Assembly: GCA_002718935.1 (NCBI GenBank)
Contig: PBFV01000083.1
Location: 1 to 15,068, forward strand
DNA: 15,068 nt
DNA from: Verrucomicrobiales bacterium
GTDB lineage: Bacteria > Verrucomicrobiota > Verrucomicrobiia > Limisphaerales > UBA1100
Direction: 5' to 3'
Below the pieces are notes generated by a model. The model made no database searches. It was given only the letters and a program-made list of their open reading frames with translations, and had not been told where the DNA came from. Each line of letters begins with the position of its first letter. Within the stretch, counting starts at the first letter, position 1. The translations under genes and the position numbers were made by a program. Of this stretch, positions 1,589 through 15,068 are shown one piece after another.

Positions 1589-4045
1589 ATGAACGAAAAA
1601 GTGCTATACATCATTCCCGCCGTGGGATTGATCGCCCTCTTGTACACCTATATGCGTGCCCAATGGGTGTCCGCTCAGGATCCCGGCACGGATCGCATGA
1701 AGCGGATTGCCGGCTACATCACCGACGGCGCGATGGCGTTTCTGCGGGCTGAATATTCCAAACTGGCGTGGTTTGTGGTTGCGGTTGCGGTGCTTTTGGC
1801 GCTGACGCAGGCCGAGCATTCCAGCCCGCTCATTGCGCTTTCCTTCGTGGTCGGCGCCACGTGCTCTGCGCTCGCCGGCTTTATCGGCATGAAAGTAGCC
1901 ACCAAAGCTAACGTCCGCACCGCACACGCCGCCCGTACGGGACTGGCTTCCGCGCTCAACGTCGCTTTCCGTGGCGGCTCGGTAATGGGCATGGGCGTGG
2001 TGGGCCTTGGGGTGCTGGGGCTTTCCGGATTGTTTTTCTTTTATTACGGCCACTTCGATTCCTCCACGTCGGCGGGCATGAATAAGATTCTCACCGTGCT
2101 GACGGGCTTCTCGTTTGGCGCCTCCTCCATTGCGCTCTTCGCGCGTGTGGGCGGTGGTATTTACACCAAGGCGGCGGACGTGGGCGCGGATCTCGTGGGT
2201 AAGGTTGAGGCGGGTATCCCCGAGGATCATCCGCTTAACCCTGCTACTATCGCCGACAACGTGGGCGATAACGTGGGCGATGTGGCTGGTATGGGCGCGG
2301 ACCTGTTCGAAAGCTACGTTGGCTCCATGATTGGCGCGATGGTGCTCGGCGTGTTGCTGATGAGCCTACCGGAGTTTATTGGTATCGAAGGTGGCCTCGG
2401 AGCGATGGGGGTGGTGATGTTGCCCTTATGCCTCGCAGCCGTCGGCATCATTGCCTCAATGATTGGCACGATGTTTGTGTCCGTCGAGGAAGGCGGCGAC
2501 CCCAAGGCCGGCCTCACGCGCGGCGAACTTACCGCAGCGGTCATCATGCTGGTGGGTGCCTATTTTCTCATCAACGGTCTGCTGCCCGCAACGTGGGAGT
2601 TGGACGGCGCCACCTACTCGGCCATGGGCGTTTTTTATGCCAGCTTGATCGGCCTTGCCTGCGGGCTGGGCATTGGGTTTGTCACCGAATATTACACCGG
2701 CTTTAACAAGGCCCCGGTGGAGGAAATTTCTATTCAATCCGCCAAGGGCGGTGCGGCCACGAACATCATTTCCGGCCTTGGCGTGGGAATGCGTTCAACG
2801 ATGTGGCCCATCCTGTTTCTCGCCACCGCCATTCTGGGCGCGTATCACTTTGCCGGCCTTTACGGCATCGCGATTGCCGCGGTGGGCATGCTTGCCAACA
2901 CCGGCATCCAACTCGCTGTGGACGCCTACGGCCCTGTGGCCGACAACGCCGGCGGCATTGCTCAGATGGGTGAACTGCCCGAGGAAGTACGCGCCCGCAC
3001 GGATAACCTAGATGCGGTGGGCAACACCACCGCCGCCATCGGCAAAGGCTTCGCGATTGGTTCGGCTGCCCTTACCGCGCTGGCGCTATTTGCCGCGTAC
3101 ATGGGCGTGGCAAAAATCACTTCCATCGACATTGCAAGCCCCAGCGTGATGGCCTGTTTATTCGTGGGAGCCATGTTGCCTTTCCTGTTCTCAGCCATGG
3201 CAATCGAAGCGGTGGGGCGCGCCGCGGCCGATATGATTAAGGAAGTTCAACGCCAGTTTAAAAAAATTCCTGAATTGAAAGCCGCCTTGGCCAAGATGAA
3301 GGATAACCATGGTAAACCGGTTGAAGAATGGAGCGAAGAAGACCGCAAGGTTTATGAAGCCGCCGACGGCAAGGCCGAGTACGCCAACTGCGTTTCCATT
3401 TCCACCACTGCCGCCATTCGCGAAATGATTAAGCCGGGCATGCTCGCCGTGCTCACACCTGTGGTGATTGGTTTTGGGTTCAAATATGTATATGGAATGA
3501 GCGAAAATGCAGAAATCGCTGCCCAAGCCGGCTCGCTTGCTGCGATGGCCCTGGGCGGTCTGCTCGCGGGCGTGACTGTCAGCGGCGTGTTGCTTGCGCT
3601 CTTCCAAGCCAACGCCGGTGGCGCGTGGGATAACGCCAAGAAAATGTTCGAGGAAGGCAATGGCGTGGAAGTGGACGGCACCTATCACAAGAAAGGCAGC
3701 GACGCTCACAAGGCCGGCGTGGTGGGCGATACCGTGGGTGATCCGCTCAAGGATACCTCCGGCCCGTCACTGAACATTCTTTTGAAGCTGATGAGCGTGA
3801 TCGCGCTGGTAATCGCCCCGCTGCTGGTTGATGCCAAGTCCGGCGATTCCGGGAACGACAGCAACGCCACCGAAGCGCCGCCTATCGGGGACACGACCGG
3901 CTCGGCCAGTGGCCCTGAAGGTGACCCGCAGCCAGGGGTGCAGGAAAAAAACCAGACATCGCAGGGTACAAACACTCCGGGAGATAAAACAACCCCGGGA
4001 GTGCAGGAGAAAATCAATCCAAAGGGTGATCCGGACAACAACTGA
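1589..4045 (+). CDS. hppA: K+-dependent membrane-bound ion-pumping pyrophosphatase
   Basis: This 818-residue polytopic inner-membrane protein hydrolyses pyrophosphate and uses the energy to pump Na+ and/or H+ out of the cytoplasm. Landmarks are [18 protein letters not shown] starting at residue 188 (K194, D197, D201), the DNVGDNVGD motif at 223-231 (D223, D227, D231), and [17 protein letters not shown] near the end (D714, D718, D722). These are the Mg-pyrophosphate site residues of the family. In [10 protein letters not shown] (478-487), A482 and G485 replace the Lys and Thr that mark K+-independent enzymes, so K+ dependence is expected. The pumped ion cannot be decided by eye. A charged insertion (about residues 560-590) extends a cytoplasmic loop. 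After the last helix (about 750) there is an odd hydrophilic tail of about 68 residues. The start is fixed by an in-frame TGA at 1565 upstream and by the first helix beginning right after it; no nearby ribosome-binding site is visible. Confidence 0.97.
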
Positions 4046-4061
4046 CCCCGGCAACAATTAA

Positions 4062-4099
4062 CCTCTCTGAAGAGGGCCGCCCTTCGGGGCGGTTTTTTT
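4062..4099 (+). terminator. Rho-independent terminator of hppA
   Basis: Two adjacent hairpins follow the hppA stop. The first is CCTCT-CTGA-AGAGG (4062-4075). The second is CCGCCC-TTCG-GGGCGG (4077-4092), a 6-base GC stem capped by the very stable TTCG tetraloop, followed directly by seven Ts (4093-4099). The second hairpin alone is a textbook intrinsic terminator for the plus strand. It separates hppA from the convergent marR-type gene, whose stop is at 4141. On the minus strand no T-run follows the hairpin, so it should act mainly on hppA. Confidence 0.92.
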
Positions 4100-4140
4100 G
4101 TGGGGAAGTCCGGGGGCTCCTTGGCGGTCAACCTCGCTGG

Positions 4141-4635
4141 TTACTTCTTCCGCCCAGCTTCCTGAGCGGCTTCCTGACAGGCGTCGGCGACTTTGGCGAG
4201 CTCTTCAAGAAATGCGTCGCGCTGGTTTTCGGGCAGTGCGCTGAGGAGTTCGCTCTGGAGATCGACGGCGGCAGCGCGCAGCTCGGTGAATTTTTCCGCG
4301 CCGGCAGGCAGCAGCAGAATGCGCTTGGCGCGGCGGTCCGTCTCGTGCGGAACGCGCTCGAGCCAGCCATTGTTTTCCATGCGCTCCAAAAGGGAGGCGA
4401 CGGTGTTGGGGTCGCTGGACATGGACTTGGTGAGCTCGCTTTGGGTAAGGCCGGCAGGATTTCCTTCGCTGAGGGTGCGCAGCACGGTAAATTGATCAGG
4501 CGTGGCGCCGGCGTGGCTGATGTGCCGGCGAAAGGCTTGGTTTAGGCCGTACCAGGCGCGGCGGAGCAGGAGCGGCAGGCGTTTGCGCTCGGGGGAATCG
4601 ATGGGGAGATCGTCGTTAAAGTGTTCCTCTGGCAT
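4141..4635 (-). CDS. MarR-family transcriptional regulator
   Basis: This 164-residue protein is a dimeric winged-helix DNA-binding regulator. The recognition region runs from TPDQFTVLRTL (about residue 45) through the HTH LTQSELTKSMSSDPNTVASL (63-82), then ERMENNGWLERV and the wing motif TDRRAKRILLLPAG (99-112), which matches the conserved DxRxK wing of MarR proteins. N- and C-terminal helices would form the dimer interface. I chose the ATG at 4635 because the reading frame extended upstream to 4749 gives an unconserved-looking leader and would place the inverted repeat at 4665-4686 inside the gene; 164 residues is also near the family norm. No clear ribosome-binding site precedes it. The gene is divergent from the seven-gene plus-strand series, and MarR proteins often repress an adjacent divergent operon until a small, often aromatic or carboxylate, ligand binds. 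Control of that operon is an inference. Confidence 0.9.
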   Translation of the reverse strand: MPEEHFNDDLPIDSPERKRLPLLLRRAWYGLNQAFRRHISHAGATPDQFTVLRTLSEGNPAGLTQSELTKSMSSDPNTVASLLERMENNGWLERVPHETDRRAKRILLLPAGAEKFTELRAAAVDLQSELLSALPENQRDAFLEELAKVADACQEAAQEAGRKK

Positions 4636-4658
4636 GATTGGGCTGGGTGTTGACGTAT

Positions 4659-4718
4659 TCAAAGAATCGTACGTACAGGTACGATTTCTGCCTTGCATTT
4701 CCCAGCGAGTAAAGTCAT
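4659..4718 (-). CDS. Possible 19-residue leader peptide upstream of the MarR gene
   Basis: On the minus strand GGAGGAG (4728-4722) precedes an ATG at 4718-4716 that opens a 19-codon frame, MTLLAGKCKAEIVPVRTIL, ending in TGA at 4661-4659, 23 bases before the chosen MarR start. This Shine-Dalgarno match is better than that of almost any real gene start in the window. The frame runs across the 4665-4686 inverted repeat, so translation could affect any RNA structure there. The short spacing (3 bases from GGAGGAG, 5 from its GGAGG core) and the tiny size leave chance a strong alternative. Confidence 0.2.
   Translation of the reverse strand: MTLLAGKCKAEIVPVRTIL
4665..4686. promoter_or_regulatory. 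22-base inverted repeat, probable MarR operator
   Basis: AATCGTAC (4665-4672) and GTACGATT (4679-4686) are perfect 8-base inverted arms around a 6-base centre, GTACAG. The overall size fits a site for a MarR-family dimer, and the location fits too: between the divergent regulator gene and the propeller-transporter-dehydrogenase series, 29 bases before the MarR start and 90 before the propeller gene start. A TTGACG at 4650-4655 could be a plus-strand -35 box, but I find no convincing -10 partner. The operator assignment is inferred from symmetry and position. Confidence 0.55.
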
Positions 4719-4728
4719 TAACTCCTCC

Positions 4729-4760
4729 GGCCCAAAAAAATGCCGTCATTGGCGTGGGCC
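4729..4760. promoter_or_regulatory. Imperfect inverted repeat in the 5' leader of the first propeller gene
   Basis: GGCCCA (4729-4734) pairs with TGGGCC (4755-4760). Inside it GCC (4742-4744) pairs with GGC (4751-4753), with an A-run bulged on one side. In RNA read from the plus strand this would form a bulged hairpin 16 bases before the ATG at 4777, in a leader with no visible ribosome-binding site. It may influence translation; it may also be chance. Confidence 0.2.
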
Positions 4761-4776
4761 CAAACCTTGTATCATT

Positions 4777-7080
4777 ATGAAGTTAATGCACTTTTCCCGT
4801 TTCAGCGCCGCGGGTCTTCTGGCGGTTGCTCTTACATCGCAGGCGGCGGTCACCGGCTGGACCAACTGGCGCGGTCCGCATCAGGCGGGGCGTTCGGATG
4901 AGAAAAATCTGCCTGACAAACTGGTGGTTTCCGGGCCGGGCAAAAATCTCCTTTGGACACATGACATCGCCGGGCGCGGCAGCGCGGTCATCGCCGGGGG
5001 CAAGGTGTACGCGTGGGGTTATCGCGGGGACGGCCCGGATTTGCAGGAAGTTTTGCTGTGTCTTAACGAGGCGGACGGCAAGAAAGTGTGGGAGCATGCC
5101 TATAATGATTACCTGAGCGACACAGTGTACAGCCGCTACAGCGTGGGTTCGCCCACCGTGGATCCGGAGACCGGCTGGATTTATCTGATGACCACCAACG
5201 GCGGCGTGAAATGCTTCAGCCCGGACGGCAAGATGCAGTGGGAATACTCGTTGATGGAACGCTTTGGCCGGCTCACTTTCCCGAACGGCCGCACCGGTGC
5301 GGCGGTGGTCGACGGCGATTTGGTGATCGTCCGCGGCGTGACCAGCTACTGGGGCAAACAAGGCCCCGCGCGCGATCGTTTTTATGCCTTCAAGAAAAAG
5401 ACCGGCGCCCCGGTCTGGGCCAGCACCCCGGGCGTGGCGCCCAAGGACAGCTCCTTTTCCACTCCGGTACTCGCTAATCTCAATGGCCGTCGCGTGTTCT
5501 ACGCCGGCACCGGCGATGGCAATGTGGTGTGCGTGGACGTGCGCACCGGCCAACCGCTCTGGCGCTTCCAAGCCTCGCAAGGCGGCGTGAACAGCAGCGT
5601 GGTGATTCACGACGGAGTGCTCGTGACCATTCACGGCAAGGAAAACATCGATGCCGCTGAGGAAGGCCGCATGATCGGCCTGAAACTGCCGACCACCCTG
5701 GCCGCCCCCGGCGAGGCGCAAGTGATCCTCAAGGATAAGGATCTGAAGATTGCCGACGGCAAAGGCTGGGAGCTGTGGCGTCATCTGTTTGCCATGTTCA
5801 CCAGCAGCCCAGCGCTGGCCGATGGCCGTGTGTATCAATTCACTAAGACCGGCGTGCTGGTGTGTGTGGACGCCAAGACCGGCAAGGTGCATTACTCCGA
5901 AAAGCTCAACAACGACCAGATCCACTCCTCACCCTTGTACGCCGACGGCAAGCTGTACGTGTGTTTCCCGAACGGTAAAGTAAAGGTGCTGCGACCCAAG
6001 GCCGACGGGTTGGAGATTCTCCACGAGCTGGAGCTGGAAGGCGGCATCCTCGGTTCGCCCACCGTGTGGAACGGCAAGATCTACATTCACACGATGAAAA
6101 AGCTCTACTGCTTCGGCAAGGCCAGCGGCGATCAGCCCAAGGCCAAACTGCCGGCCGCCCCGGCCAAGCCGGCGGATTCCAAGGCGGTGGCGCTGCAAAT
6201 CGTGCCCGGCGATGTGCTGCTGAAGCCCGGCGAAAAACTCAACCTCACCGTCAACACCATCGACCAATACGGCAACGTGGTGGAGCGCGGCGTGAAGGCC
6301 ACGTTTGAAAAATTCATCCCGCCCACTGCCCGGGTAAAGACCAGCATGAATGCCAGCGTGAGCGGCAACGCAATCACGGCCGACGCTAAAAACGTGGCCA
6401 GCGCCGGTGCCTTCAAGGCCACAGCCGGCGGGCTCACCGGCCTGTTGCGCGGCCGCATCCTGCCGAAGATTCCCTACACACAGGATTTCGAGGGGTACAA
6501 CCTCACGGTGGATCACGTCGGTGACGGCGTAAAGTTTGCGTACCCGCCGCTGGCGTGGACCGGCGCTCGCCTCAAGTGGGAGGTGCGCGATCTGGACGGC
6601 AACAAGGTCTTTCGCAAGACACTTGACCGCGTGCTCTTCCAGCGGGCCATTACCATTTTTGGCGACCCGGAATCCAGCGGGTACACCATTGAGTGTGACG
6701 TCATGACCGACAGCGCGCGGCGCGGCCGGTCGATGGGCAACATCGGCGTCATGAACCAGCGATATTTCATCGCGCTCATTGGCAACCAGCAATTGCTGGA
6801 GGTCAGCAGCAACCATGAGCGTGTGAAGGAAAGCGTGCCCTTCAAATGGTCCGCGAAAAAATGGTACACCCTCAAAACCCGCGTGGACGTGGCGGCCGAT
6901 GGCAGCGGCGTGGTGCGCGCGAAGGTCTGGCCTCAGGGCGAGCCTGAGCCGGCCAAGTGGACCATCGAAGTAAAACACAAGAACGCCCACAAAAAAGGCG
7001 CCCCTGGCATCATCGGCTTCTCCCCGCAGAGCCTGAAGGCCGTGTTTATCGACAACATCAAGATCACCCGGAACCAGTAG
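4777..7080 (+). CDS. Exported PQQ-type beta-propeller protein with Ig-like and lectin-like C-terminal domains
   Basis: This 767-residue protein begins with a Sec-type signal peptide (Arg at 8, hydrophobic 10-20, probable cleavage after SQAA near residue 24), which is why I chose ATG 4777 over the in-frame ATG at 4693. Residues about 27-450 form a PQQ-like propeller. It opens with WTNWRGPHQAGRSDE and shows repeated blades of the form G-x-VYxxxxxGxVxCxDxxTGxxxW, for example NVVCVDVRTGQPLWRF and GVLVCVDAKTGKVHY. A Pro/Ala/Lys linker leads to an Ig-like domain (about 470-565) and then a concanavalin-A-like sandwich beginning YTQDFEGYNL and ending FIDNIKITRNQ. I recognise no quinoprotein dehydrogenase catalytic site, such as a vicinal disulfide, so it may be a scaffold or binding protein rather than an enzyme. 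It heads the plus-strand operon, 22 bases before a second propeller gene. Confidence 0.9.
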   Translation: MKLMHFSRFSAAGLLAVALTSQAAVTGWTNWRGPHQAGRSDEKNLPDKLVVSGPGKNLLWTHDIAGRGSAVIAGGKVYAWGYRGDGPDLQEVLLCLNEADGKKVWEHAYNDYLSDTVYSRYSVGSPTVDPETGWIYLMTTNGGVKCFSPDGKMQWEYSLMERFGRLTFPNGRTGAAVVDGDLVIVRGVTSYWGKQGPARDRFYAFKKKTGAPVWASTPGVAPKDSSFSTPVLANLNGRRVFYAGTGDGNVVCVDVRTGQPLWRFQASQGGVNSSVVIHDGVLVTIHGKENIDAAEEGRMIGLKLPTTLAAPGEAQVILKDKDLKIADGKGWELWRHLFAMFTSSPALADGRVYQFTKTGVLVCVDAKTGKVHYSEKLNNDQIHSSPLYADGKLYVCFPNGKVKVLRPKADGLEILHELELEGGILGSPTVWNGKIYIHTMKKLYCFGKASGDQPKAKLPAAPAKPADSKAVALQIVPGDVLLKPGEKLNLTVNTIDQYGNVVERGVKATFEKFIPPTARVKTSMNASVSGNAITADAKNVASAGAFKATAGGLTGLLRGRILPKIPYTQDFEGYNLTVDHVGDGVKFAYPPLAWTGARLKWEVRDLDGNKVFRKTLDRVLFQRAITIFGDPESSGYTIECDVMTDSARRGRSMGNIGVMNQRYFIALIGNQQLLEVSSNHERVKESVPFKWSAKKWYTLKTRVDVAADGSGVVRAKVWPQGEPEPAKWTIEVKHKNAHKKGAPGIIGFSPQSLKAVFIDNIKITRNQ

Positions 7081-7102
7081 CAATCCTCAAACTCCAAGCA
7101 TT

Positions 7103-8797
7103 ATGAAAAGCAAATCCTTCTTTATCTCCGGCGGCCTGAGCCTGCTGGCGGGCGTGGCCATCATCGGCACGCAAACCAACTGCCAAACCGACGGCGGCGG
7201 CGACGCCAACGGATCGGACAACGGCGTGCCGCCCCTGCCCTCAGGGGCGGCGAGCGCGCCCTCCCCCACGCCAGTGGCCAACCTTGAGGTGCCCAAGGGC
7301 GGCCAGGATTGGCCGGTGTGGAGTGGCAACGGCAGTGGCAACCTGTACTCGCCGGAAAAAAACATCCCCGCCAGCTTTGACCCGGGCAAATTCAAGAAAG
7401 GCACTGAGGACATCGACCTGAGCACGACGAAGAACGTGCGCTGGGCCGCCAAGCTCGGCAGCCAAAGCTACGGCAACACCACCGTTTCCAACGGCAAAGT
7501 GTACGTGGGCACTAACAATGAAACACCGCGCGACAAGCGCCACGTGGGCGACCGCGGTATTGTGTATTGTCTCGATGAAAAGACCGGCGAGCTGGAATGG
7601 CAGCTGGTCGTACCTAAGCTGGGCGCTGGCAAGGTGAGCGACTGGGAATACCTCGGCATTTGCTCCAGCCCCGCCGTGGAAGGCAACCGCGTGTACGTGG
7701 TGGCCAACCGCTGCGAAATTCTCTGCCTCGACACTGAGGGCATGAAAAACGGCAACCAAGGTTTTCAAGGTGAAGCCAAGTACATGGTGGACAAGGGCAA
7801 GGCCCCGCTGGAGCCCACCAACAAGGATGCGGACATCATCTGGCGCTTTGACATGCGCGAAGAGCTCGGCGTGTTCCCGCATAACATCGCCAGCAGCTCG
7901 GTGCTGATCGTGGGCGACCTGCTCTTTTGCACGACCTCTAATGGTCAGGATTGGAGCCACCTGAACATCCCCGCTCCGCAGTCCCCATGCATTGTGGCGC
8001 TGAACAAGAAAGACGGCACTCTTGCCGGCGAGGAAGCCGAAGGCATTGGCAAAAGCATCCTGCACTGCAACTGGTCTAGCCCCTCCAAGGGTAAGATCAA
8101 AGGCAAGGACGCTGTGTTCTTTGCGGGCGGCGACGGCGTGCTCTACGCCTTTGACACGAAGTTCAAGAAGGACGAGGAAGGCTACGAGATTTTCAACACG
8201 CTGTGGAAGTACGACTGTGTGCCGGCCGATTACAAGAAGGACAAGGATGGTAACGAGATCAAGTACCCCGCCGCCGAGGGGCCGAGCGAGTTGATCGCTA
8301 CGCCTACTTACTATAAAGGCAACGTGTACGTGGCCATTGGCCAGGATCCTGAACATGGCGAGGGACTCGGTTGCCTCTCTTGTGTGGATGCCGATACCGG
8401 CAAGAAGATTTGGGAGTACAAAAAAATCCAGCGCACCATTTCCACCTGCGCCATTGATCCAGAATCCGGCCTGCTGATCGCCTCTGATTACACCGGTTAT
8501 GTTTACTGCCTCGACGCCAAAACCGGCAAGGAGCACTGGATCTACGACACCAAGGCCCACATGTGGAGCAGCCCGCTCATCGCTGACGGCAAAGTGTACA
8601 TTGGTGACGAGGATGGTGATCTCACCGTGCTACCGCTCAAGGCCAACTTCAACCCGAAGGAAGACGAGCCCATCTTCGAGACCAACATGCTGGTGCCCAT
8701 TTACTCCACCCCCGTGGTGGCCAACGGCACACTGTACATCGGCACGCAAACCCACCTGTACGCCATTCAGGCCGACGGCAAATCCGCCACTGAATAG
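7103..8797 (+). CDS. Second exported PQQ-type beta-propeller protein, Cys-rich
   Basis: This 564-residue secreted protein has an N-terminal hydrophobic signal (residues 5-22) and then TQTNCQ, with Cys27 followed by a Gly/Ser/Asn/Pro-rich linker to about residue 65. That layout is lipoprotein-like, but the bases before Cys encode Q-T-N rather than a normal lipobox, so lipidation is doubtful. The propeller starts at QDWPVWSGNGSGNLYS and has typical blades such as GIVYCLDEKTGELEWQL and GYVYCLDAKTGKEHWIYD, ending in LYIGTQTHLYAIQ. About a dozen Cys residues lie in the mature part, suggesting disulfides. It is a paralogue of the upstream gene but lacks its Ig-like and lectin-like domains. As in its neighbour I see no clear quinoprotein active site, and PQQ binding is unproven. 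It lies 22 bases after the first propeller gene and 27 before the next gene, consistent with one transcript. Confidence 0.9.
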   Translation: MKSKSFFISGGLSLLAGVAIIGTQTNCQTDGGGDANGSDNGVPPLPSGAASAPSPTPVANLEVPKGGQDWPVWSGNGSGNLYSPEKNIPASFDPGKFKKGTEDIDLSTTKNVRWAAKLGSQSYGNTTVSNGKVYVGTNNETPRDKRHVGDRGIVYCLDEKTGELEWQLVVPKLGAGKVSDWEYLGICSSPAVEGNRVYVVANRCEILCLDTEGMKNGNQGFQGEAKYMVDKGKAPLEPTNKDADIIWRFDMREELGVFPHNIASSSVLIVGDLLFCTTSNGQDWSHLNIPAPQSPCIVALNKKDGTLAGEEAEGIGKSILHCNWSSPSKGKIKGKDAVFFAGGDGVLYAFDTKFKKDEEGYEIFNTLWKYDCVPADYKKDKDGNEIKYPAAEGPSELIATPTYYKGNVYVAIGQDPEHGEGLGCLSCVDADTGKKIWEYKKIQRTISTCAIDPESGLLIASDYTGYVYCLDAKTGKEHWIYDTKAHMWSSPLIADGKVYIGDEDGDLTVLPLKANFNPKEDEPIFETNMLVPIYSTPVVANGTLYIGTQTHLYAIQADGKSATE

Positions 8798-8824
8798 ATA
8801 GCGCCGGTACTGCTGCGACCCGCG

Positions 8825-9343
8825 ATGAGGTACTTTATTGCCGCGCTTGTGGTGTCCCTTTGCTGGGCCCATCAGGACTGGTTTATTTGGCCAATCCTGC
8901 AGGGGTTCGACGGCGAGGACTCGTTCCTTGGCTACCTGAACACCGCTGAGCATGAGCTGAAGTTCGGCCTGCCCGCTGGCTTGGGCTATCAGGTTTTTCT
9001 CTCCTTCCTCACCGCTGCTGTCTGGCTATTGGCCGTGTGGAAGGCGTGGCCCAGTGAACTGGAGCAGTGGGCCGAGACCGGTGGCGGTCGGGGGAACCGC
9101 GACCGTGGACGCAGCCAGGGCGGGCGCAACCGGCGCAGCGGCGGCGAACGCAAATCGGACAACGGCGGCAAGGCCCCACGCACCGAGCAGAAATCATCCT
9201 CCGAAAACGGCGGCGGCAATGCCCGCGGAGAAGGCACAGGCCGACGCCGACGCCGGCGCGGTGGCCGGGGCCGCAACCGCGGCGGCAATGACAACGGCGG
9301 TTCCGGTCAATCCAACGGCGGCAACGCACCCGCAAAATCATGA
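8825..9343 (+). CDS. DUF3311-like two-helix membrane protein with Arg/Gly-rich tail
   Basis: This 172-residue protein has a first membrane helix at about 3-22, a short extracytoplasmic loop, and a second helix at about 52-74 (GLPAGLGYQVFLSFLTAAVWLLAVWKAWP). The HQDW near the first helix, the GLP before the second and the position directly before an SSS transporter gene match the small DUF3311-type partners of such transporters. That family assignment is from memory and is tentative. Residues about 86-172 are a disordered, strongly basic tail with several GGR, RGR and RNR units and a run of six Arg at 140-145. The positive-inside rule puts both ends in the cytoplasm. Its stop overlaps the transporter start by four bases (ATGA, 9340-9343), implying translational coupling. 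A role as an accessory subunit or stability factor for the transporter is an inference; the tail is unusual. Confidence 0.75.
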   Translation: MRYFIAALVVSLCWAHQDWFIWPILQGFDGEDSFLGYLNTAEHELKFGLPAGLGYQVFLSFLTAAVWLLAVWKAWPSELEQWAETGGGRGNRDRGRSQGGRNRRSGGERKSDNGGKAPRTEQKSSSENGGGNARGEGTGRRRRRRGGRGRNRGGNDNGGSGQSNGGNAPAKS

Positions 9344-11487
9344 TCGATCTCCCCCTCATCGCCACCAGCTCATTGCCCGTGTGGATTGTGCTTGGATACC
9401 TGCTGCTGCTGCTGGCGCTGGGCGTTTACAGTGGCACCCGTTTCCGCGGCACCAGCAAGGATTACTTTGTGGCCAGTCGCTCGATCGGTTCTTTCATGCT
9501 GCTGATGAGCGTGTTCGGCACCACCATGACCGGCTTTGCCCTCGTCGGATCCACCGGCAAAGCCTTCACCACGGGAGTGGCCACGTATGGCGCGCTCGCC
9601 TCGTGGAGCGGCATCATTCACTCAGCGGTCTTTTTCGTGATCGGCCTGCGCCTCTGGGCCATTGGCAAACGCCACGGCTACGTGACGCAGGTGGAATTCT
9701 TCAGGGCCCGGTTTAATTCGCATCACCTCGGCACCGTACTTTTCGTGCTGCTCGTGTTGCTCATCATCCCGTACCTGCTAATTGGCATCATCAGCGCCGG
9801 CAAATTTGTGCAGGGCACCACCAAGGGCATGTTCGAGGCCGGCTGGCTGGTCGGCGGCATCCCGCCGTGGCTCACCGGCTTGATCATCTGTAGTGTGGTT
9901 CTCAGCTACGTTTTCCTCGGCGGCGTCCGCAGCGCCGCGTGGGCCAATACCTTCCAAACCATCATCTTCATGCTCACCGGCGTCATCGCCTTCCTAATGA
10001 TCTCCAAGGCGGTGGCAGATAGAACTGAGTCAGGCAGCGGCAGTGTGGTGGAGAACGTCCGGAGGGCGACTGAACTGGTGGAACAAAAGATCCCCGACCG
10101 GCTCACGATGGGTAAATCTGAGCAGGAAGTAACTCAACACGCGGAACAAACAGATACATACGATATCTCCGTCAATTGGTTTGATGGTGTCAAAGAATAT
10201 GGATTGGAAGAGGCAAAAATGATGCTTCAAAGGCCTGAATCATTGGTGGCCAAGCCATTGGAACCAAAGCCTTCAATGTCACACATGGTTTTCATTACAT
10301 TCCTATTCATTCCGTTGAGTGTAGGAATGTTTCCGCACGTGTTTCAGCATTGGCTCACCGCAAAATCAGCCAAAAGTTTTCGCCTCGCAATTGTAGGGCA
10401 CCCAATATGCATCGCCATCGTCTGGTTGCCTTGCATTTTAATCGGGGTTTGGGCGGCTGGGCTCAAGGCCGCTGGTGAGTTGGACCCACCTTCATTGCCA
10501 CTTTCATTATCTGATGCCAACAAGACCGTACGCAGTTTGAGTTTTGATTTGCATGAATTCACCAAGAAGGATTTTCCGGCTATTACTCAATTTTCCACAA
10601 ACCAGTGGTTGGCCGCGGGCACGGAATACACTGAGGCCCGAAAGGCATTAAAAGATGCCAGTGAAAACATGAATTCCGCTATTGAGGAATTCGTGCTTAA
10701 GCCGGCAAAAGACAACAATGGTTCCGCACTGCTTGCAGCATCGGTCGCCAACTTAACTCAGGTATCCAGTCATCTGGATGCGCTTGCCAAGCGATTAAAA
10801 TCAGACGCGAACAAAACGGAAGAATTCCAGTCTATGGTCTCTCTGGTTAGCGGAGTTTCACACAAGGCGAAAACGATGGTGATCAATTCCAAAAAGACGA
10901 ATATGAACACCGTGCTGGGCGCGATGGTGGGACAGTTGGTTGGCAATCCGTGGCTATTGGGACTGTTAATGGCGGGAGTACTGGCGGCGATCATGAGCAG
11001 CCTTGATTCACAGTTTGCATGTTTGGGTACGATGTTCACCAATGACATTGTGATCGCCACCAAAGGAAAGGATTTTTATAGCGATGCAGACAAGGTGAAG
11101 ATTGCGCGGTGGTTTGTGATTGGCGTCGTGACCGTGGCCTTCTGTATGTCGCTATTGTTGGCCAACTCCAGCGTGTTTAATCTTGGGCTTTGGTGCTTTA
11201 GCGGGTTTACGGCGTTGTTCCCGATTGTGGTGGCGGCGTTGTACTGGAAACGAGCGACGGCGGTGGGCGCGTTTGCGTGCATCTTTGTGACGGCAGTGTT
11301 ATGGACGTACTGGTTCCACCAGTCTGGTTACGGGGCAAATAAGGCATTTGCGGTATATGGTATGTTACCGGTGGCGCCTCTTACATTGGCCTCGTCCGCG
11401 GCACTAGTAATAGGTTCCTTGTGTAGCAAGTCACCTGAATCGCGTTTGGTGAACCGCTTTTTTCCCCGCGCGCAAAACGGGGCGTGA
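9340..11487 (+). CDS. SSS-family sodium:solute symporter with two large insertions
   Basis: This 715-residue inner-membrane transporter should couple Na+ entry to uptake of a small solute. About 13 membrane helices can be drawn: near 13-31, 48-70, 84-108, 129-153, 175-195, 203-223, 315-335, 350-375, 524-551, 583-606, 612-633, 637-658 and 673-695. Family signatures are VASRSIGSFMLLMSVFGTTMTG in the second helix, YVFLGGVRSAAWANTFQ (190-206), and AAIMSSLDSQ, where S553 and S554 match the Ser pair that binds Na+ in characterised members. Most SSS proteins have 450-600 residues. The excess here is in two hydrophilic stretches, about 226-313 (loop 6-7) and 383-521 (loop 8-9), the latter predicted mostly helical. 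It is coupled to the preceding gene by ATGA, and its own TGA overlaps a GTG that may start the ligase gene. The substrate is unknown; a carboxylate, alcohol or sugar acid would suit the downstream enzymes. Confidence 0.93.
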   Translation: MIDLPLIATSSLPVWIVLGYLLLLLALGVYSGTRFRGTSKDYFVASRSIGSFMLLMSVFGTTMTGFALVGSTGKAFTTGVATYGALASWSGIIHSAVFFVIGLRLWAIGKRHGYVTQVEFFRARFNSHHLGTVLFVLLVLLIIPYLLIGIISAGKFVQGTTKGMFEAGWLVGGIPPWLTGLIICSVVLSYVFLGGVRSAAWANTFQTIIFMLTGVIAFLMISKAVADRTESGSGSVVENVRRATELVEQKIPDRLTMGKSEQEVTQHAEQTDTYDISVNWFDGVKEYGLEEAKMMLQRPESLVAKPLEPKPSMSHMVFITFLFIPLSVGMFPHVFQHWLTAKSAKSFRLAIVGHPICIAIVWLPCILIGVWAAGLKAAGELDPPSLPLSLSDANKTVRSLSFDLHEFTKKDFPAITQFSTNQWLAAGTEYTEARKALKDASENMNSAIEEFVLKPAKDNNGSALLAASVANLTQVSSHLDALAKRLKSDANKTEEFQSMVSLVSGVSHKAKTMVINSKKTNMNTVLGAMVGQLVGNPWLLGLLMAGVLAAIMSSLDSQFACLGTMFTNDIVIATKGKDFYSDADKVKIARWFVIGVVTVAFCMSLLLANSSVFNLGLWCFSGFTALFPIVVAALYWKRATAVGAFACIFVTAVLWTYWFHQSGYGANKAFAVYGMLPVAPLTLASSAALVIGSLCSKSPESRLVNRFFPRAQNGA
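10021..10902. other. AT-rich mosaic segment inside the transporter gene
   Basis: Hand counts of 60-base lines give about 38% GC at 10141, 10261 and 10501 and 47-50% at 10081, 10201, 10681 and 10801, against 62% at 9361 in the same gene and similarly high values in the neighbouring genes. Codon choice shifts as well, with more A- or T-ending codons. The stretch covers both hydrophilic insertions and the two helices between them, and the reading frame stays open throughout. This could mean recombination with a homologue of different composition or relaxed codon selection in a fast-evolving region. The boundaries are approximate. Confidence 0.6.
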
Positions 11488-11523
11488 CGAGCGCAACCAC
11501 TTGGGCAACATTGAACGCCCCGC

Positions 11524-11530
11524 AGGAAAA
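11524..11530 (+). promoter_or_regulatory. Ribosome-binding site deciding the ligase start
   Basis: AGGAAAA sits in the run between the transporter stop and the ATG at 11538, about 7-10 bases upstream of it. It is one of the few plausible Shine-Dalgarno sites in the window and favours ATG 11538 over the GTG at 11484 that overlaps the transporter stop. Confidence 0.4.
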
Positions 11531-11537
11531 AGAATTT

Positions 11538-12629
11538 ATGGCTGAATTGGATCAACAAGTGCAGGAAGCCAAGGCCGCGCTCGATGCGCAGGCCGTGGAG
11601 ATTGTGAAGTGGCATTTTTCGCCCGAAACCGGTTGCCCGTTCTGGCTCGATTGGGCCAAGGAGGCCGGCTGGAATCCGGCGGAGGAGATCACGTGCTTCG
11701 ACGATATCATCGCGAAGTTTCCCCACTTCCAGGACGAGTGGCTGCGTGACAAGCAACCGGAGGTGTGGGTGCCGCAGGAATTCAAGGGGCAGCCGTTCAA
11801 CATTTTTGAAACGGGCGGCACCACGGGCATGCCCAAGCAGCGCATCGGCTGGAACGATTACAAGGTGGATTATAGCGAGTTTTCCGACACGCTGGATGAC
11901 GAGGCGTTTCCGAAGAATCATTACTGGCTGATGGTGGGCCCGACGGGGCCGCGCCGGTTGCGGCTGGCGATTGAGCACCTGGCCAATGTGCGCGGGTGTT
12001 CGTGCTATTTTGTGGATCTCGATCCGCGCTGGGTGAAGCGGTTGATCAGTGAGAAGCAGTTTGACCAGGCCAAGGCGTACATGGAGCACGTGGTGGATCA
12101 GGCCACAACGATCATGAAGCATCGCGAAGTGAGCGCGCTGTTTACCACGCCGAAGCTGCTCGAGAGCATCGCCGAGCGCTGCGAGGCGGAAGGCGGCAGC
12201 CTGTACGAGAGCGGCGTGCGCGGAGTGTTCTGCGGCGGCACCACGATGGATCCGCAGTACACGCGCTTCCTGTGCGAGGAACTGCTCGAGAACAAGATCG
12301 GGTTCGTGCCCACCTACGGCAACACGCTGATGGGGCTGGCCAAGCACAAGCCGTTGACGGCCGAGGACAAGTATTCCATCACCTACTACGCGCCGCAGCC
12401 GCGCGCGGTACTGCGCGTGGTCAACCCGGATACGGACGAGCCGGTGGATTACGAGGAGTGGGGCCGCGTGGAGTTGACCACGCTGACGAAGGAATTTTTC
12501 ATGCCGCGCTTCCTCGAGCGTGACGAGGCCATCCGCCGCGCGCCGATCGACACCTACCCGTGGGACGGCGTGGCCGAGGTCCGGCCCTTTGGCGCGCTCA
12601 CCAAAAAGATCGTGGAAGGCGTTTACTAA
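11538..12629 (+). CDS. Short ANL-superfamily adenylating enzyme, PaaK/LuxE-like
   Basis: This 363-residue cytoplasmic protein should activate a carboxylic acid with ATP to an acyl-adenylate, then probably to a thioester. The ANL P-loop is FETGGTTGMPKQR (E91 to R102; canonical form SSGTTGxPK). A second Gly-rich stretch is VFCGGTTMD (231-239). TYGNTLMG (Y260 to G266) occupies the place of the YGxTE adenine motif, and GRVELTTLTKEFFMPRFLERD (R324, R328, D329) parallels the region of phenylacetate-CoA ligases with the ribose-binding Asp. The length is near LuxE (about 370) and shorter than PaaK (about 430); little of the mobile C-terminal domain is left. LuxE's acyl-accepting Cys near the C-terminus is absent (the protein ends TKKIVEGVY). 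A GTG at 11484 would add 18 residues and overlap the transporter stop. The aldehyde dehydrogenase gene follows after 27 bases. Fold assignment is good; the acceptor (CoA, a protein or the next enzyme) is unknown. Confidence 0.8.
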   Translation: MAELDQQVQEAKAALDAQAVEIVKWHFSPETGCPFWLDWAKEAGWNPAEEITCFDDIIAKFPHFQDEWLRDKQPEVWVPQEFKGQPFNIFETGGTTGMPKQRIGWNDYKVDYSEFSDTLDDEAFPKNHYWLMVGPTGPRRLRLAIEHLANVRGCSCYFVDLDPRWVKRLISEKQFDQAKAYMEHVVDQATTIMKHREVSALFTTPKLLESIAERCEAEGGSLYESGVRGVFCGGTTMDPQYTRFLCEELLENKIGFVPTYGNTLMGLAKHKPLTAEDKYSITYYAPQPRAVLRVVNPDTDEPVDYEEWGRVELTTLTKEFFMPRFLERDEAIRRAPIDTYPWDGVAEVRPFGALTKKIVEGVY

Positions 12630-12656
12630 ACCAACAATCCAACAACTGAATTTATC

Positions 12657-14105
12657 ATGCTGAACATTCCTGTATTACGCTGGGGCGAACCGTACGAGAG
12701 CCTCGAGACCGATGAGGTCATACATCACCGCACCGGCGAGGTGCTGGCCAAGGTGGGCCAGGCTAATCCCGGCCTGCTCGCGCGCGATATGCGCAAGGCC
12801 GACCGCGCCCGCGAACTGCTCCGCGAGATTCCGATCAAGGATCTCATTGAGATGATGAAAAAGGCCGGCGACCTGTATCTCAACGCCACCCTGCCGCTCG
12901 GCGATGGCGAGCAAACACCGGACGATTTTGCGCGGCAACAGTCCGCCTCCACCGGTCTGCCGGAGCACATGTGCAAATTCAACATGGAGAAAAACCACTT
13001 CGTGTTGAACAACATGGACCAGATTTTCGACGCGCTCACCCGCGGACTGGACCTCGAGATTCTCGAGCGCGGCTTTGGCGTGGAGGAACGCGGCGTGCCG
13101 GTCAGCTATCAGGCACAGTCTCCCGTGCTCGGCATGGTGTTGCCCAGCAACTCGCCTGGCGTGCACACGCTGTGGATGCCGGTCATCCCCATGCAGATCG
13201 GCCTCGTGCTGAAGCCCGGCCCGCAGGAGCCGTGGACGCCCTACCGCATGTTCGCAGCCTTCACCGAGGCCGGCGTGCCCAAGGAAGCCATCGGCATTTA
13301 TCCCGGCGGCCCGGACATGGGCGCGGAAACCGTGGCCCGCTGCGGCCGCGTAATGATTTTCGGCAGTACGCAAACCGTGAAGAACTACGCCGGCAACGAG
13401 CAGGTGCAGGTGCACGGCCCGGGCTACAGCAAAATTCTCCTCGGCGACGATGTGGTCGATCAATGGGAGGGCTACATCGATTTGATGGCCGACAGCATTT
13501 ACAAGAACAGCGGCCGCGGCTGCATCAACTGCTCCGGCGTGTGGGCCTCGCGGCACACCGAGGAAATCGCCGCGGCGATCGCCGAGAAGGTCGGCGGTTA
13601 CGAAGTGAAGGATCCCACCGATCCCGAGGCCGGTCTCGCCGCCTTCACCGTGCCCAATCAGGCCGAAGCCATTTGGGGCATGATCGAGGAAGGCTGCGAG
13701 GAGAACGGCACCACGCACGTCACCGCCAAGCACGGCGACCGCCTCGTGCAGATGGAGCGCTGCGATTACATTCGCCCAACCATCCTGCACTGCGATTCGC
13801 CCGACCGCAAGATGGCCAACACCGAGTACATGTTCCCCTTCACCACCGTGGTGGAATGTCCGCAGGAACAGATGATCGACAAGATCGGCGGCACGCTCGT
13901 CGCCAGCGCCATCACCAACGACGAGGCGTGGGCCCGCCAGCTCACCGATGCCACTAATATCGACCGCCTCAACATCGGCGCCATCCCCACCATCGCCCTA
14001 AACTGGCTCCAGCCGCACGAAGGCAGCATCGTCGATTTCCTGTTCAACGCGCGTGCCTACCAGACTTCCGACGAACGCCTGAAACGCCTCTGCAACGGCG
14101 GCTGA
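12657..14105 (+). CDS. Divergent aldehyde dehydrogenase / acyl-CoA reductase-like enzyme
   Basis: This 482-residue protein of the ALDH superfamily interconverts an aldehyde and an acyl-thioester or acid with NAD(P). Visible landmarks are PSNSPG (163-168; N165 at the oxyanion-hole position of the usual PWNxP motif), LVLKPG (K186, cofactor Lys), IFGSTQTVKN in the place of the FTGS NAD-site motif, and NSGRGCINC, with the probable catalytic C289 and a second Cys at 292. E390 in TEYMFPF stands for the Glu of EEIFGP. Where normal ALDHs have the general base in ELGG, this protein has VHGPG (H253), so the usual base is missing, as expected for an enzyme that works by thiol transfer rather than hydrolysis. 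Length and Cys position are close to the LuxC acyl-CoA reductases (about 480, Cys286 in Vibrio harveyi). The gene lies 27 bases after the ligase and 31 before an alcohol dehydrogenase. Superfamily is sure; the direction is inferred. Confidence 0.85.
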   Translation: MLNIPVLRWGEPYESLETDEVIHHRTGEVLAKVGQANPGLLARDMRKADRARELLREIPIKDLIEMMKKAGDLYLNATLPLGDGEQTPDDFARQQSASTGLPEHMCKFNMEKNHFVLNNMDQIFDALTRGLDLEILERGFGVEERGVPVSYQAQSPVLGMVLPSNSPGVHTLWMPVIPMQIGLVLKPGPQEPWTPYRMFAAFTEAGVPKEAIGIYPGGPDMGAETVARCGRVMIFGSTQTVKNYAGNEQVQVHGPGYSKILLGDDVVDQWEGYIDLMADSIYKNSGRGCINCSGVWASRHTEEIAAAIAEKVGGYEVKDPTDPEAGLAAFTVPNQAEAIWGMIEEGCEENGTTHVTAKHGDRLVQMERCDYIRPTILHCDSPDRKMANTEYMFPFTTVVECPQEQMIDKIGGTLVASAITNDEAWARQLTDATNIDRLNIGAIPTIALNWLQPHEGSIVDFLFNARAYQTSDERLKRLCNGG

Positions 14106-14136
14106 ACAAGTCCGCGCCACGAGGCGTCTACCTGCA

Positions 14137-15068
14137 ATGAGCCACCCCGCCGAACTGGTTGACCAAGCGAGCTTTGACACCACGCTGCATCTGCGGCTGG
14201 TGTTCGGCAACGGCACGCTTAGCCGGCTAGGCGAACTGGCTTCGGAACACGGCGCAGGCAAGGTTTTGCTCGTGACCGATCCCGGCATTCGTGCCGTGGG
14301 CCATGTGGACCGCGCACAAGCCAGCCTTGAAGCCGCCGGTTTGTCCGTGGCCATTTACGATCAGGCCAAGGAAAATCCCACGACGGAGTGCGTGGCCGAG
14401 TGTGTGGAATTAGCCAGAGCCGAGGGGATCGATTTCATCGTCGGCCTCGGTGGCGGCAGCTCAATGGACACCGCCAAGGGTTGCAATTTCCTGCTCACCA
14501 ATGGCGGCGAGATGAAGGATTATTGGGGGGTGGGCAAGGCCTCCAAGCCGATGCTGCCGCTCATCGCCATCCCCACCACCGCCGGCACCGGCAGCGAATG
14601 CCAAAGTTTTGCGCTCATTTCCGATGCCGTCACGCACGCCAAGATGGCCTGTGGCGATCCCAAGGCGATGGCCAAGGTGGCGATCCTCGACCCCGAGCTC
14701 ACACTTTCCCAACCGCTGCGCGTCACCGCCTGCACGGGCATTGATGCCGTGGCGCACGCTGTGGAATCCGCCGTCACCCGCAAGCGCAACGACACCTCAC
14801 AGGAATATTCGCGCGTGGCGTTTGGGTTGCTTAGTGAAAGTTTGCCGCGGGTGTTAGCAAATCCTGATGATCTTGAGGCACGTGGCCGCATGCTGCTCGG
14901 TGCCGCCTTTGCCGGCACGGCGATCGAACACAGCATGCTGGGTGCAGCGCATTCGGCGGCCAATCCGTTGACGGCGCACTTTGATGTGATCCACGGGGAA
15001 GCTGTTGGTTTGATGCTGCCTCACGTGGTTCGCTTCAATGGCGAAGATGAAAGCATCTCTCAAATTTA
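14137..15068 (+). CDS. Iron-type (group III) alcohol dehydrogenase, 3' end outside the window
   Basis: The first 310 residues of an NAD(P)-dependent alcohol dehydrogenase are present; the frame is still open at the window edge and family members usually have about 380-400. The dinucleotide motif GGGSSMD is at 105-111, followed by IPTTAGTGSE, a strong family signature. All four metal ligands are present with the spacing of FucO-type enzymes: D203 and H207 in GIDAVAHAVE, H272 in GAAHSAANP and H286 in VIHGEAVG. The metal is probably Fe2+, possibly Zn2+. It would interconvert an alcohol and an aldehyde in the cytoplasm. Its place 31 bases after the aldehyde dehydrogenase gene suggests that the two share the aldehyde intermediate. 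I chose ATG 14137 because the typical N-terminal strand FGNGTLSRLGEL (23-34) follows at normal distance. Relatives include lactaldehyde, 1,3-propanediol and hydroxybutyrate dehydrogenases, so the substrate is open. Confidence 0.93.
   Translation, partial: MSHPAELVDQASFDTTLHLRLVFGNGTLSRLGELASEHGAGKVLLVTDPGIRAVGHVDRAQASLEAAGLSVAIYDQAKENPTTECVAECVELARAEGIDFIVGLGGGSSMDTAKGCNFLLTNGGEMKDYWGVGKASKPMLPLIAIPTTAGTGSECQSFALISDAVTHAKMACGDPKAMAKVAILDPELTLSQPLRVTACTGIDAVAHAVESAVTRKRNDTSQEYSRVAFGLLSESLPRVLANPDDLEARGRMLLGAAFAGTAIEHSMLGAAHSAANPLTAHFDVIHGEAVGLMLPHVVRFNGEDESISQI

Follow-up and report, generated by a model that had tools for sequence, protein, structure and literature searches.

What does an acid-activating enzyme do between a sodium:solute symporter and two dehydrogenases, downstream of a pair of apparently exported beta-propellers? 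This arrangement is found on contig PBFV01000083.1 of a Verrucomicrobiales bacterium (assembly GCA_002718935.1, from a genome ~71% complete); the window analysed here is the entire contig, 15,068 bases. We observe three co-directional open reading frames (ORFs) encoding an AMP-binding adenylating enzyme (hereafter the ligase), an aldehyde dehydrogenase (ALDH) and an iron-containing alcohol dehydrogenase (Fe-ADH); since the window is the whole contig, the truncation of the last gene comes from the assembly. An earlier note on this DNA had described three such adjacent genes joined to a transporter and exported propellers, and the ORFs and Pfam matches bear this out, with the export of the propellers judged by eye from their N-termini rather than by a predictor. 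In our reading, to which we assign a probability of about 0.68, the ligase and the ALDH form a two-component carboxylate reductase of the EhpF/EhpG (GriC/GriD) type that works with the alcohol dehydrogenase and is tied to an uptake module. The gene set, present in many Verrucomicrobiota, probably serves to import an organic acid, likely an aromatic one, and to reduce it to the aldehyde and the alcohol.

Family of the ligase and its aldehyde dehydrogenase

Among solved structures in the Protein Data Bank (PDB), the ligase best matches EhpF (3hgu; 146 bits, E = 2e-41, residues 16-381 aligned to EhpF 5-369), and the next structure class, 4-chlorobenzoate-CoA ligase, reaches only 23 bits. The alignment extends to the EGVY terminus common to both proteins with no further Pfam domain, and because the two ends coincide, the C-terminal domain of ANL enzymes is missing from the ligase. 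The stretches ETGGTTGxPKQ, YGNT and FLERDE are invariant in 13 aligned homologues. By these sequence features, we class the ligase as an adenylating enzyme of the EhpF type that lacks the ANL C-terminal domain. The earlier note had placed the ligase near LuxE and the ALDH near LuxC, and had considered the PaaK family of phenylacetate degradation for the ligase; neither placement held. The ligase gave no match to PF04443 (LuxE) at E≤10, a limit at which the HMMER filters drop most matches above 0.1, and no PaaK model at E≤0.01 other than the haloarchaeal NF041878, which scored 17.4 bits against a cut-off of 700. F390 synthetase was likewise rejected, with an NCBIfam score far below its cut-off.

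The ALDH, for its part, gave only the Aldedh family in Pfam, and neither the window copy nor that of a second operon on contig C23 of the same genome bin matched PF05893 (LuxC) at E≤10. In classical hydrolytic ALDHs, a Glu residue serves as the general base. At that position, located by alignment to classical ALDH, all 26 aligned ALDHs carry His, while the catalytic Cys289 is kept in 26/26. The replaced site lies in a motif HGPG-SK that resembles the QGPG-SK of EhpG. A CoA-acylating ALDH was considered and rejected, the NCBIfam model for MMSDH scoring 34.6 bits, far below its cut-off. No microcompartment shell protein genes were found among the Pfam-scanned neighbours, whole genomes not having been searched for them.

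Plasmids provide a further view of the pair. Homologues of the ligase occur in 28 of 72,556 plasmid records; the eight loci inspected comprise three phenazine-type clusters (Pantoea, E. coli and Burkholderia ubonensis), three from Streptomyces and two haloarchaeal, and identity to the ligase in such loci is 28-37% by tblastn. Several of the Streptomyces copies are annotated ‘arylcarboxylate reductase’. The ALDH has matches at E≤1e-15 in 17 of the 72,556 records, all 17 of which also carry a ligase homologue, with 16 of the pairs ≤300 bp apart and one at 2.1 kb. Because these matches are confined to ligase-bearing records, an EhpG-type partner is strongly supported, and we assign the ALDH on sequence grounds to this type, with its catalytic Cys kept and its general base replaced.

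How close are these proteins to systems already described? LuxE and LuxC activate an acid, hand the acyl group to a Cys and reduce it to the aldehyde, and the likeness to them is one of mechanism and not of family; Pantoea EhpG itself touches the LuxC model in Pfam at only 19.6 bits, under the cut-off of 21. EhpF and EhpG act in the pathway to D-alanylgriseoluteic acid. Their phenazine cluster in Pantoea shares with the window a ligase without C-terminal domain, an adjacent ALDH, common motifs and the replaced Glu, but it is an antibiotic cluster with a major facilitator superfamily (MFS) transporter and a short-chain dehydrogenase/reductase (SDR), and neither Fe-ADH nor a propeller adjoins it. 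For grixazone formation in Streptomyces griseus, the pertinent parts of PMC10179220 describe GriC/GriD as converting an aryl acid, 3-amino-4-hydroxybenzoate, through acyl-AMP to the aldehyde within an antibiotic pathway; our background on EhpF and GriC/GriD is drawn from these parts and from gene tables in PMC11278526. We liken the window to GriC/GriD by described chemistry, an AMP-binding enzyme and a reductase taking aryl acid to aldehyde, and not by sequence. Additionally, the order symporter-ligase-ALDH recurs on haloarchaeal plasmids of Halalkalicoccus jeotgali (L135:5559-9617) and Halomarina sp. PSR21 (L138:6538-10407), a possible cross-domain parallel. These loci differ in their archaeal host; an SDR on the opposite strand comes next in H. 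jeotgali, and no Fe-ADH match at E≤1e-4 was found in either plasmid stretch examined.

A tree of 36 chosen ligase sequences places 26 rows on one side of a 100/99 branch, with short branches inside this clade, and ten natural-product, archaeal and futalosine-cluster rows outside it, the order of the latter being unsure since long branches meet there, as the program warned.

Co-occurrence and gene neighbourhoods in Verrucomicrobiota

We used one sample of 288 Verrucomicrobiota genomes for all proteins. At E≤0.001, the ligase is found in 14 genomes, 12 of them at 1e-158 or better and two with distant matches (1e-22 and 1e-24). At E≤1e-60, the ALDH is found in 12 genomes (worst match 1.6e-112), the Fe-ADH in 13, the first propeller (prop1) in 12 among the matches displayed, and the second (prop2) in 25. 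The genome sets of ligase (at this same threshold), ALDH and prop1 are identical, and the Fe-ADH set consists of those 12 plus one genome with a weak match (G081, 1.8e-64, vs 3.7e-105 or better for the rest). In 11 of the 12, the prop1 match is 8.2e-208 or better, and in genome G059 it is marginal and partial (6.4e-62, residues 14-304). The 11 best prop2 matches, each 8.5e-161 or better, also fall in 11 of the 12 ligase genomes; the prop2 of G059 (3.1e-109) would not be singled out by score alone because the best of the 13 genomes without a close ligase reaches 6.3e-121, and it sits at the ligase locus. If genomes were independent, the chance of two identical sets of 12 among 288 would be 1.9e-21. 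This figure serves as a yardstick only, because the 12 are not independent, but they do carry six family labels (f1, f3, f5, f8, f30 and f35), with six of the genomes in f8. The association of ligase, ALDH, Fe-ADH and prop1 exceeds chance. That the propellers share this phyletic pattern had been missed by the earlier note. Of the 20 genomes in the family to which the window belongs, several of them incomplete or fragmented, 13 have the ligase, 11 the ALDH, 13 the Fe-ADH, 10 all three and six none.

To view gene neighbourhoods, a species collection was scanned with two short peptide patterns, yielding at least 578 relatives, of which 80 loci were kept. Their titles name 74 Verrucomicrobiota, three ‘bacterium’ and three members of other phyla (Planctomycetaceae, Phycisphaeraceae and Vicinamibacteraceae). 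Among the 59 loci with ≥5 kb downstream of the ligase, the ALDH is present in 30, the Fe-ADH in 24, both in 22 and the Fe-ADH only in two. On the upstream side, 55 loci have ≥7 kb, and we found prop1 in 43, prop2 in 43 and both in 42, with a sodium:solute symporter (SSF) within 3 kb in 19 and a divergent MarR-family gene in 26. In 11 loci without an SSF match, precisely the slot between prop2 and the ligase is filled by an MFS gene. A third propeller and a HemN-like radical SAM gene follow downstream in some loci, and a TonB receptor is present in others. Verrucomicrobium sp. BvORR106 (locus L080) has the operon in contiguous form.

Where the genes are not neighbours, they still occur together. 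Four whole genomes with a solitary ligase gene were inspected, and each encodes ALDH and Fe-ADH at other sites. The ligase lies apart from both ALDH-FeADH and prop1-prop2 in three genomes (G187, G190 and G199); in G234 the ligase, ALDH, Fe-ADH and prop1-prop2 occupy four contigs, and in G235 the genes are divided between two contigs, one with prop1-prop2-SSF and the other with ligase-ALDH-FeADH. Co-occurrence therefore persists across two to four separate loci. Since the genes split in this way yet co-occur, we distinguish two modules: an outside or uptake module (prop1-prop2-transporter) and a cytosolic module (ligase-ALDH-ADH). Rare co-occurrence of the three enzyme genes, which would have refuted the earlier note, was not observed at the level of genomes (12/12, even when unlinked), whereas their adjacency is more variable (22/59). 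The single acid-alcohol pathway that had been suggested from the gene order, with an activated acyl group and an aldehyde as intermediates, gains support, as all 12 ligase genomes carry the trio and the first two enzymes belong to a family that includes known carboxylate reductases.

A proposed acid-to-alcohol pathway and its rivals

In the pathway that we favour, the SSF transporter, replaced elsewhere by an MFS transporter, would import a carboxylate, probably an aromatic one. The single-domain ligase would convert acid and ATP to acyl-AMP and pyrophosphate (PPi). Since it has no domain for the usual acyl transfer to CoA, it would instead hand the acyl group to Cys289 of the ALDH; because the ALDH lacks the Glu that hydrolyses the thioester, the acyl-enzyme would not be hydrolysed but reduced by NAD(P)H, yielding the aldehyde. 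The Fe-ADH would then reduce the aldehyde to the alcohol. We propose that the two apparently exported propellers take part from outside the cytosol, perhaps in substrate binding or processing ahead of import. The relatives suggest an aromatic substrate by analogy, as do, weakly, the MFS transporters, of which the one scanned (locus L054) has an aromatic acid/H+ symport model as its best match (67.9 bits).

Several observations weigh against this reading. The aromatic acid score of the L054 transporter is far below its cut-off of 418.55, and sialate symport (57.3 bits) and MhpT (57.1 bits) score nearly as well. Identity to Pantoea EhpF and EhpG is low, 27% for the ligase and 20% for the ALDH. 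A long branch sets the ligases apart as a clade of their own, so that their substrate may differ from those of the described enzymes. Neither ALDH nor Fe-ADH lies within 5 kb downstream of the ligase in 27 of the 59 loci, and the ALDH is present without Fe-ADH in another eight; of the 28 plasmid records that carry a ligase homologue, 11 lack an ALDH match at E≤1e-15. The window's own family contains exceptions, with ligase and ALDH but no Fe-ADH match in G288, ligase and Fe-ADH but no ALDH match in G294 and G300, and Fe-ADH only in G299. Finally, nothing accounts for two propellers accompanying a cytosolic reductase.

The same proteins can be read in other ways. The known relatives of the pair sit in biosynthetic clusters, some distant ones lie among futalosine-pathway genes, and a prephenate dehydrogenase gene, whose cluster is found in 5/95 loci, follows the Fe-ADH on C23; the set could thus be biosynthetic, its product an exported aryl alcohol or aldehyde of specialised or structural use, in the manner of the phenazine and grixazone pathways. 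However, transporters of importer families and propellers are present instead of phenazine-type scaffold genes, none of which was found among the Pfam-scanned neighbours, themselves only part of all neighbours, and the ligase clade shows little internal divergence and is present in many lineages, which makes a biosynthetic role unlikely. The direction of flow could also be reversed, with an alcohol imported, oxidised by Fe-ADH to the aldehyde and by the ALDH to an acyl-enzyme, and the ligase running backwards to yield acid and ATP from acyl-AMP and PPi. SSF import of a small solute is compatible with both directions, and the solved structures nearest to the Fe-ADH are NAD-dependent methanol dehydrogenases; yet an adenylating enzyme is unnecessary for simple oxidation, the described relatives run from acid to aldehyde in the parts of PMC10179220 that treat them, and the pyrophosphatase that adjoins the operon in some relatives would remove the PPi needed for reversal. 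We regard an oxidative direction as decidedly unlikely. A route through CoA, as in fermentation or microcompartments, with a PaaK-like acyl-CoA ligase and a CoA-acylating ALDH, would draw on weak NCBIfam matches of the ligase to F390 synthetase, a DVU_1553-family ligase and PaaK (17-26 bits) and on the MMSDH match of the ALDH, but all of these are far below their cut-offs. The alignment of the ligase with EhpF to the last residue leaves no room for a CoA-handling domain and the nearest plasmid ALDHs are all in records with an EhpF-like gene, so that the CoA route appears very improbable.

The propellers invite one more alternative. In outline, fungal aryl-alcohol redox cycling couples an extracellular aryl-alcohol oxidase to intracellular aryl-aldehyde reduction. 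A bacterial counterpart would have the exported, quinoprotein-like propellers oxidise the alcohol outside, the transporter import the acid, and the ligase, ALDH and Fe-ADH regenerate the alcohol, thereby sharing with the fungal system an oxidising protein outside and reductases inside. If this were true, a small molecule would carry electrons out of the cell, and the scheme would account for the single phyletic pattern that two exported and three cytosolic proteins share in the phylum even where their genes are unlinked. However, the fungal outside enzyme is a flavoprotein, whereas the window propellers have no known oxidase activity; such activity would be hypothetical, no hallmark of pyrroloquinoline quinone (PQQ) enzymes was found, and we give the cycling scheme very little credence. 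A vicinal Cys pair is important in PQQ-dependent alcohol dehydrogenases, and none is present in prop1, prop2 or 23 aligned prop2 rows, some of them partial. Quinoproteins match the prop2 profile over short stretches only, and prop2 scores 37.3 bits with the PQQ-dependent alcohol dehydrogenase model TIGR03075 against a cut-off of 480.05. Conserved residues of prop2 include W, H, D and N. PqqC was found in 0/12 ligase genomes and also in 0/14 control genomes; because the controls are silent too, this search shows nothing alone. True PQQ enzymes are therefore not supported as the identity of the propellers.

A type of reductase known from a few antibiotic pathways is thus widespread in an ecologically common and little-understood phylum. 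It suggests that aquatic and soil bacteria carry out an acid-to-alcohol conversion that has gone unrecognised, and it may supply useful CoA-free carboxylate reductases. The five-protein unit also contains two propellers of a family with few known functions, offering a testable handle on their role. The enzyme pair is of a known kind, and to our knowledge no description exists of its placement, with Fe-ADH, in a conserved transporter-propeller unit: among the best matches in open-licence papers, we found no description of an EhpF/EhpG-type reductase in Verrucomicrobiota, and within that literature the earlier suggestion of a pathway undescribed in PVC bacteria stands.

The wider window and a second operon copy

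The window begins with a Gfo/Idh oxidoreductase gene (- strand), which precedes the features collected below in their order on the contig.

Table. Features of the window (contig C83 of genome G000), with positions counted from its first base
Feature	Position	Strand	Evidence
Membrane pyrophosphatase	1589..4045	+	NCBIfam NF001955, 1092 bits
MarR-family regulator, divergent from operon	4141..4749	-	Pfam MarR, 46.6 bits
prop1, apparently exported PQQ_2/BamB-like beta-propeller with C-terminal extension, 768 aa	4774..7080	+	Pfam PQQ_2, 98.8 bits
prop2, apparently exported PQQ_2-like beta-propeller, 564 aa	7103..8797	+	Pfam PQQ_2, 81.7 bits
172-aa protein, hydrophobic N-terminal part, Gly/Arg-rich tail	8825..9343	+	No Pfam match
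Sodium:solute symporter (SSF), probable importer, 715 aa	9340..11487	+	Pfam SSF, 115 bits, 2 stretches
Ligase, predicted EhpF/GriC-type adenylating enzyme, 381 aa from GTG	11484..12629, likely start 11538	+	Pfam AMP-binding, 31.7 bits; PDB EhpF 3hgu, 146 bits
ALDH, predicted EhpG/GriD-type aldehyde dehydrogenase (acyl reductase), 482 aa	12657..14105	+	Pfam Aldedh, 91.5 bits
Fe-ADH, iron-containing alcohol dehydrogenase, 310 aa, open at window end	14137..15068	+	Pfam Fe-ADH, 181.5 bits

The GTG start of the ligase overlaps the stop codon of the SSF gene. The ATG at 11538, which would give a protein of ~363 aa, is the likelier start because it is directly preceded by the ribosome-binding-like AGGAAAAA. 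No sigma-70-type promoter-like sites were found in window positions 4000-15068, vs a mean of 3.5 in shuffled sequences, and a phage-family scan of the window gave nothing useful. At 715 aa, the SSF protein exceeds all others in its cluster of 32 (median ~550 aa), and a long insert separates its two matched stretches. In relative L029, the slot of the 172-aa protein is occupied by a DUF3311 protein (31.2 bits, cut-off 30); the 172-aa protein clusters in 4/95 loci, with further matches in L043, L132 and L134. The membrane pyrophosphatase, which has a low-complexity C-terminal tail with PGVQEK twice, is at the same place in L032 (the same contig as L131), L037, L041 and L134. It adjoins the operon in some relatives only and is a possible accessory at most, which would remove PPi formed by the ligase.

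The second operon, on contig C23 (L018:1-3957), is 98% identical to the window at the SSF end, 79% in the ligase, 42% in the ALDH and 93% in the Fe-ADH, and is followed by CbiX and the prephenate dehydrogenase. An assembly duplicate is an unlikely source, the two copies being 77-83% identical in DNA, and C23 may carry a true second operon or reflect a mixed bin. Its Fe-ADH is full-length (394 aa; the 93% identity applies to the part common to both copies). The best NCBIfam models for this protein, ErcA, choline dehydrogenase and lactaldehyde reductase, all score far below their cut-offs, and the methanol dehydrogenase structures named above are its nearest. The D-H-H-H residues, which we take to be the metal ligands, are present in the Fe-ADH.

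Two types of ALDH, ~42% identical, occupy the same slot of the operon: type A in the window and in L032-L039, and type B in C23 and most other loci. The genes flanking the slot are more alike than the type A and type B ALDHs themselves (window 12657-14105 vs L018:1314-2717), and we interpret the alternation as in-place replacement. The ALDH of L098 is intermediate, with 61% identity to type A. The residue after KPG is Pro in four type A rows and in L098; in the other 21 rows it is Arg (18), Lys (2) or His (1), perhaps reflecting a change of cofactor.

Outside the ligase clade, distant EhpF-like genes lie in futalosine/menaquinone-type clusters (L030:8999-16254, L031:6010-15247 and L114:6868-13089). 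The futalosine-type cluster of L030, and by cluster that of L031, also has a class III aminotransferase and a U32 peptidase. Their placement hints that these EhpF-like genes serve the reduction of a naphthoate-type acid.

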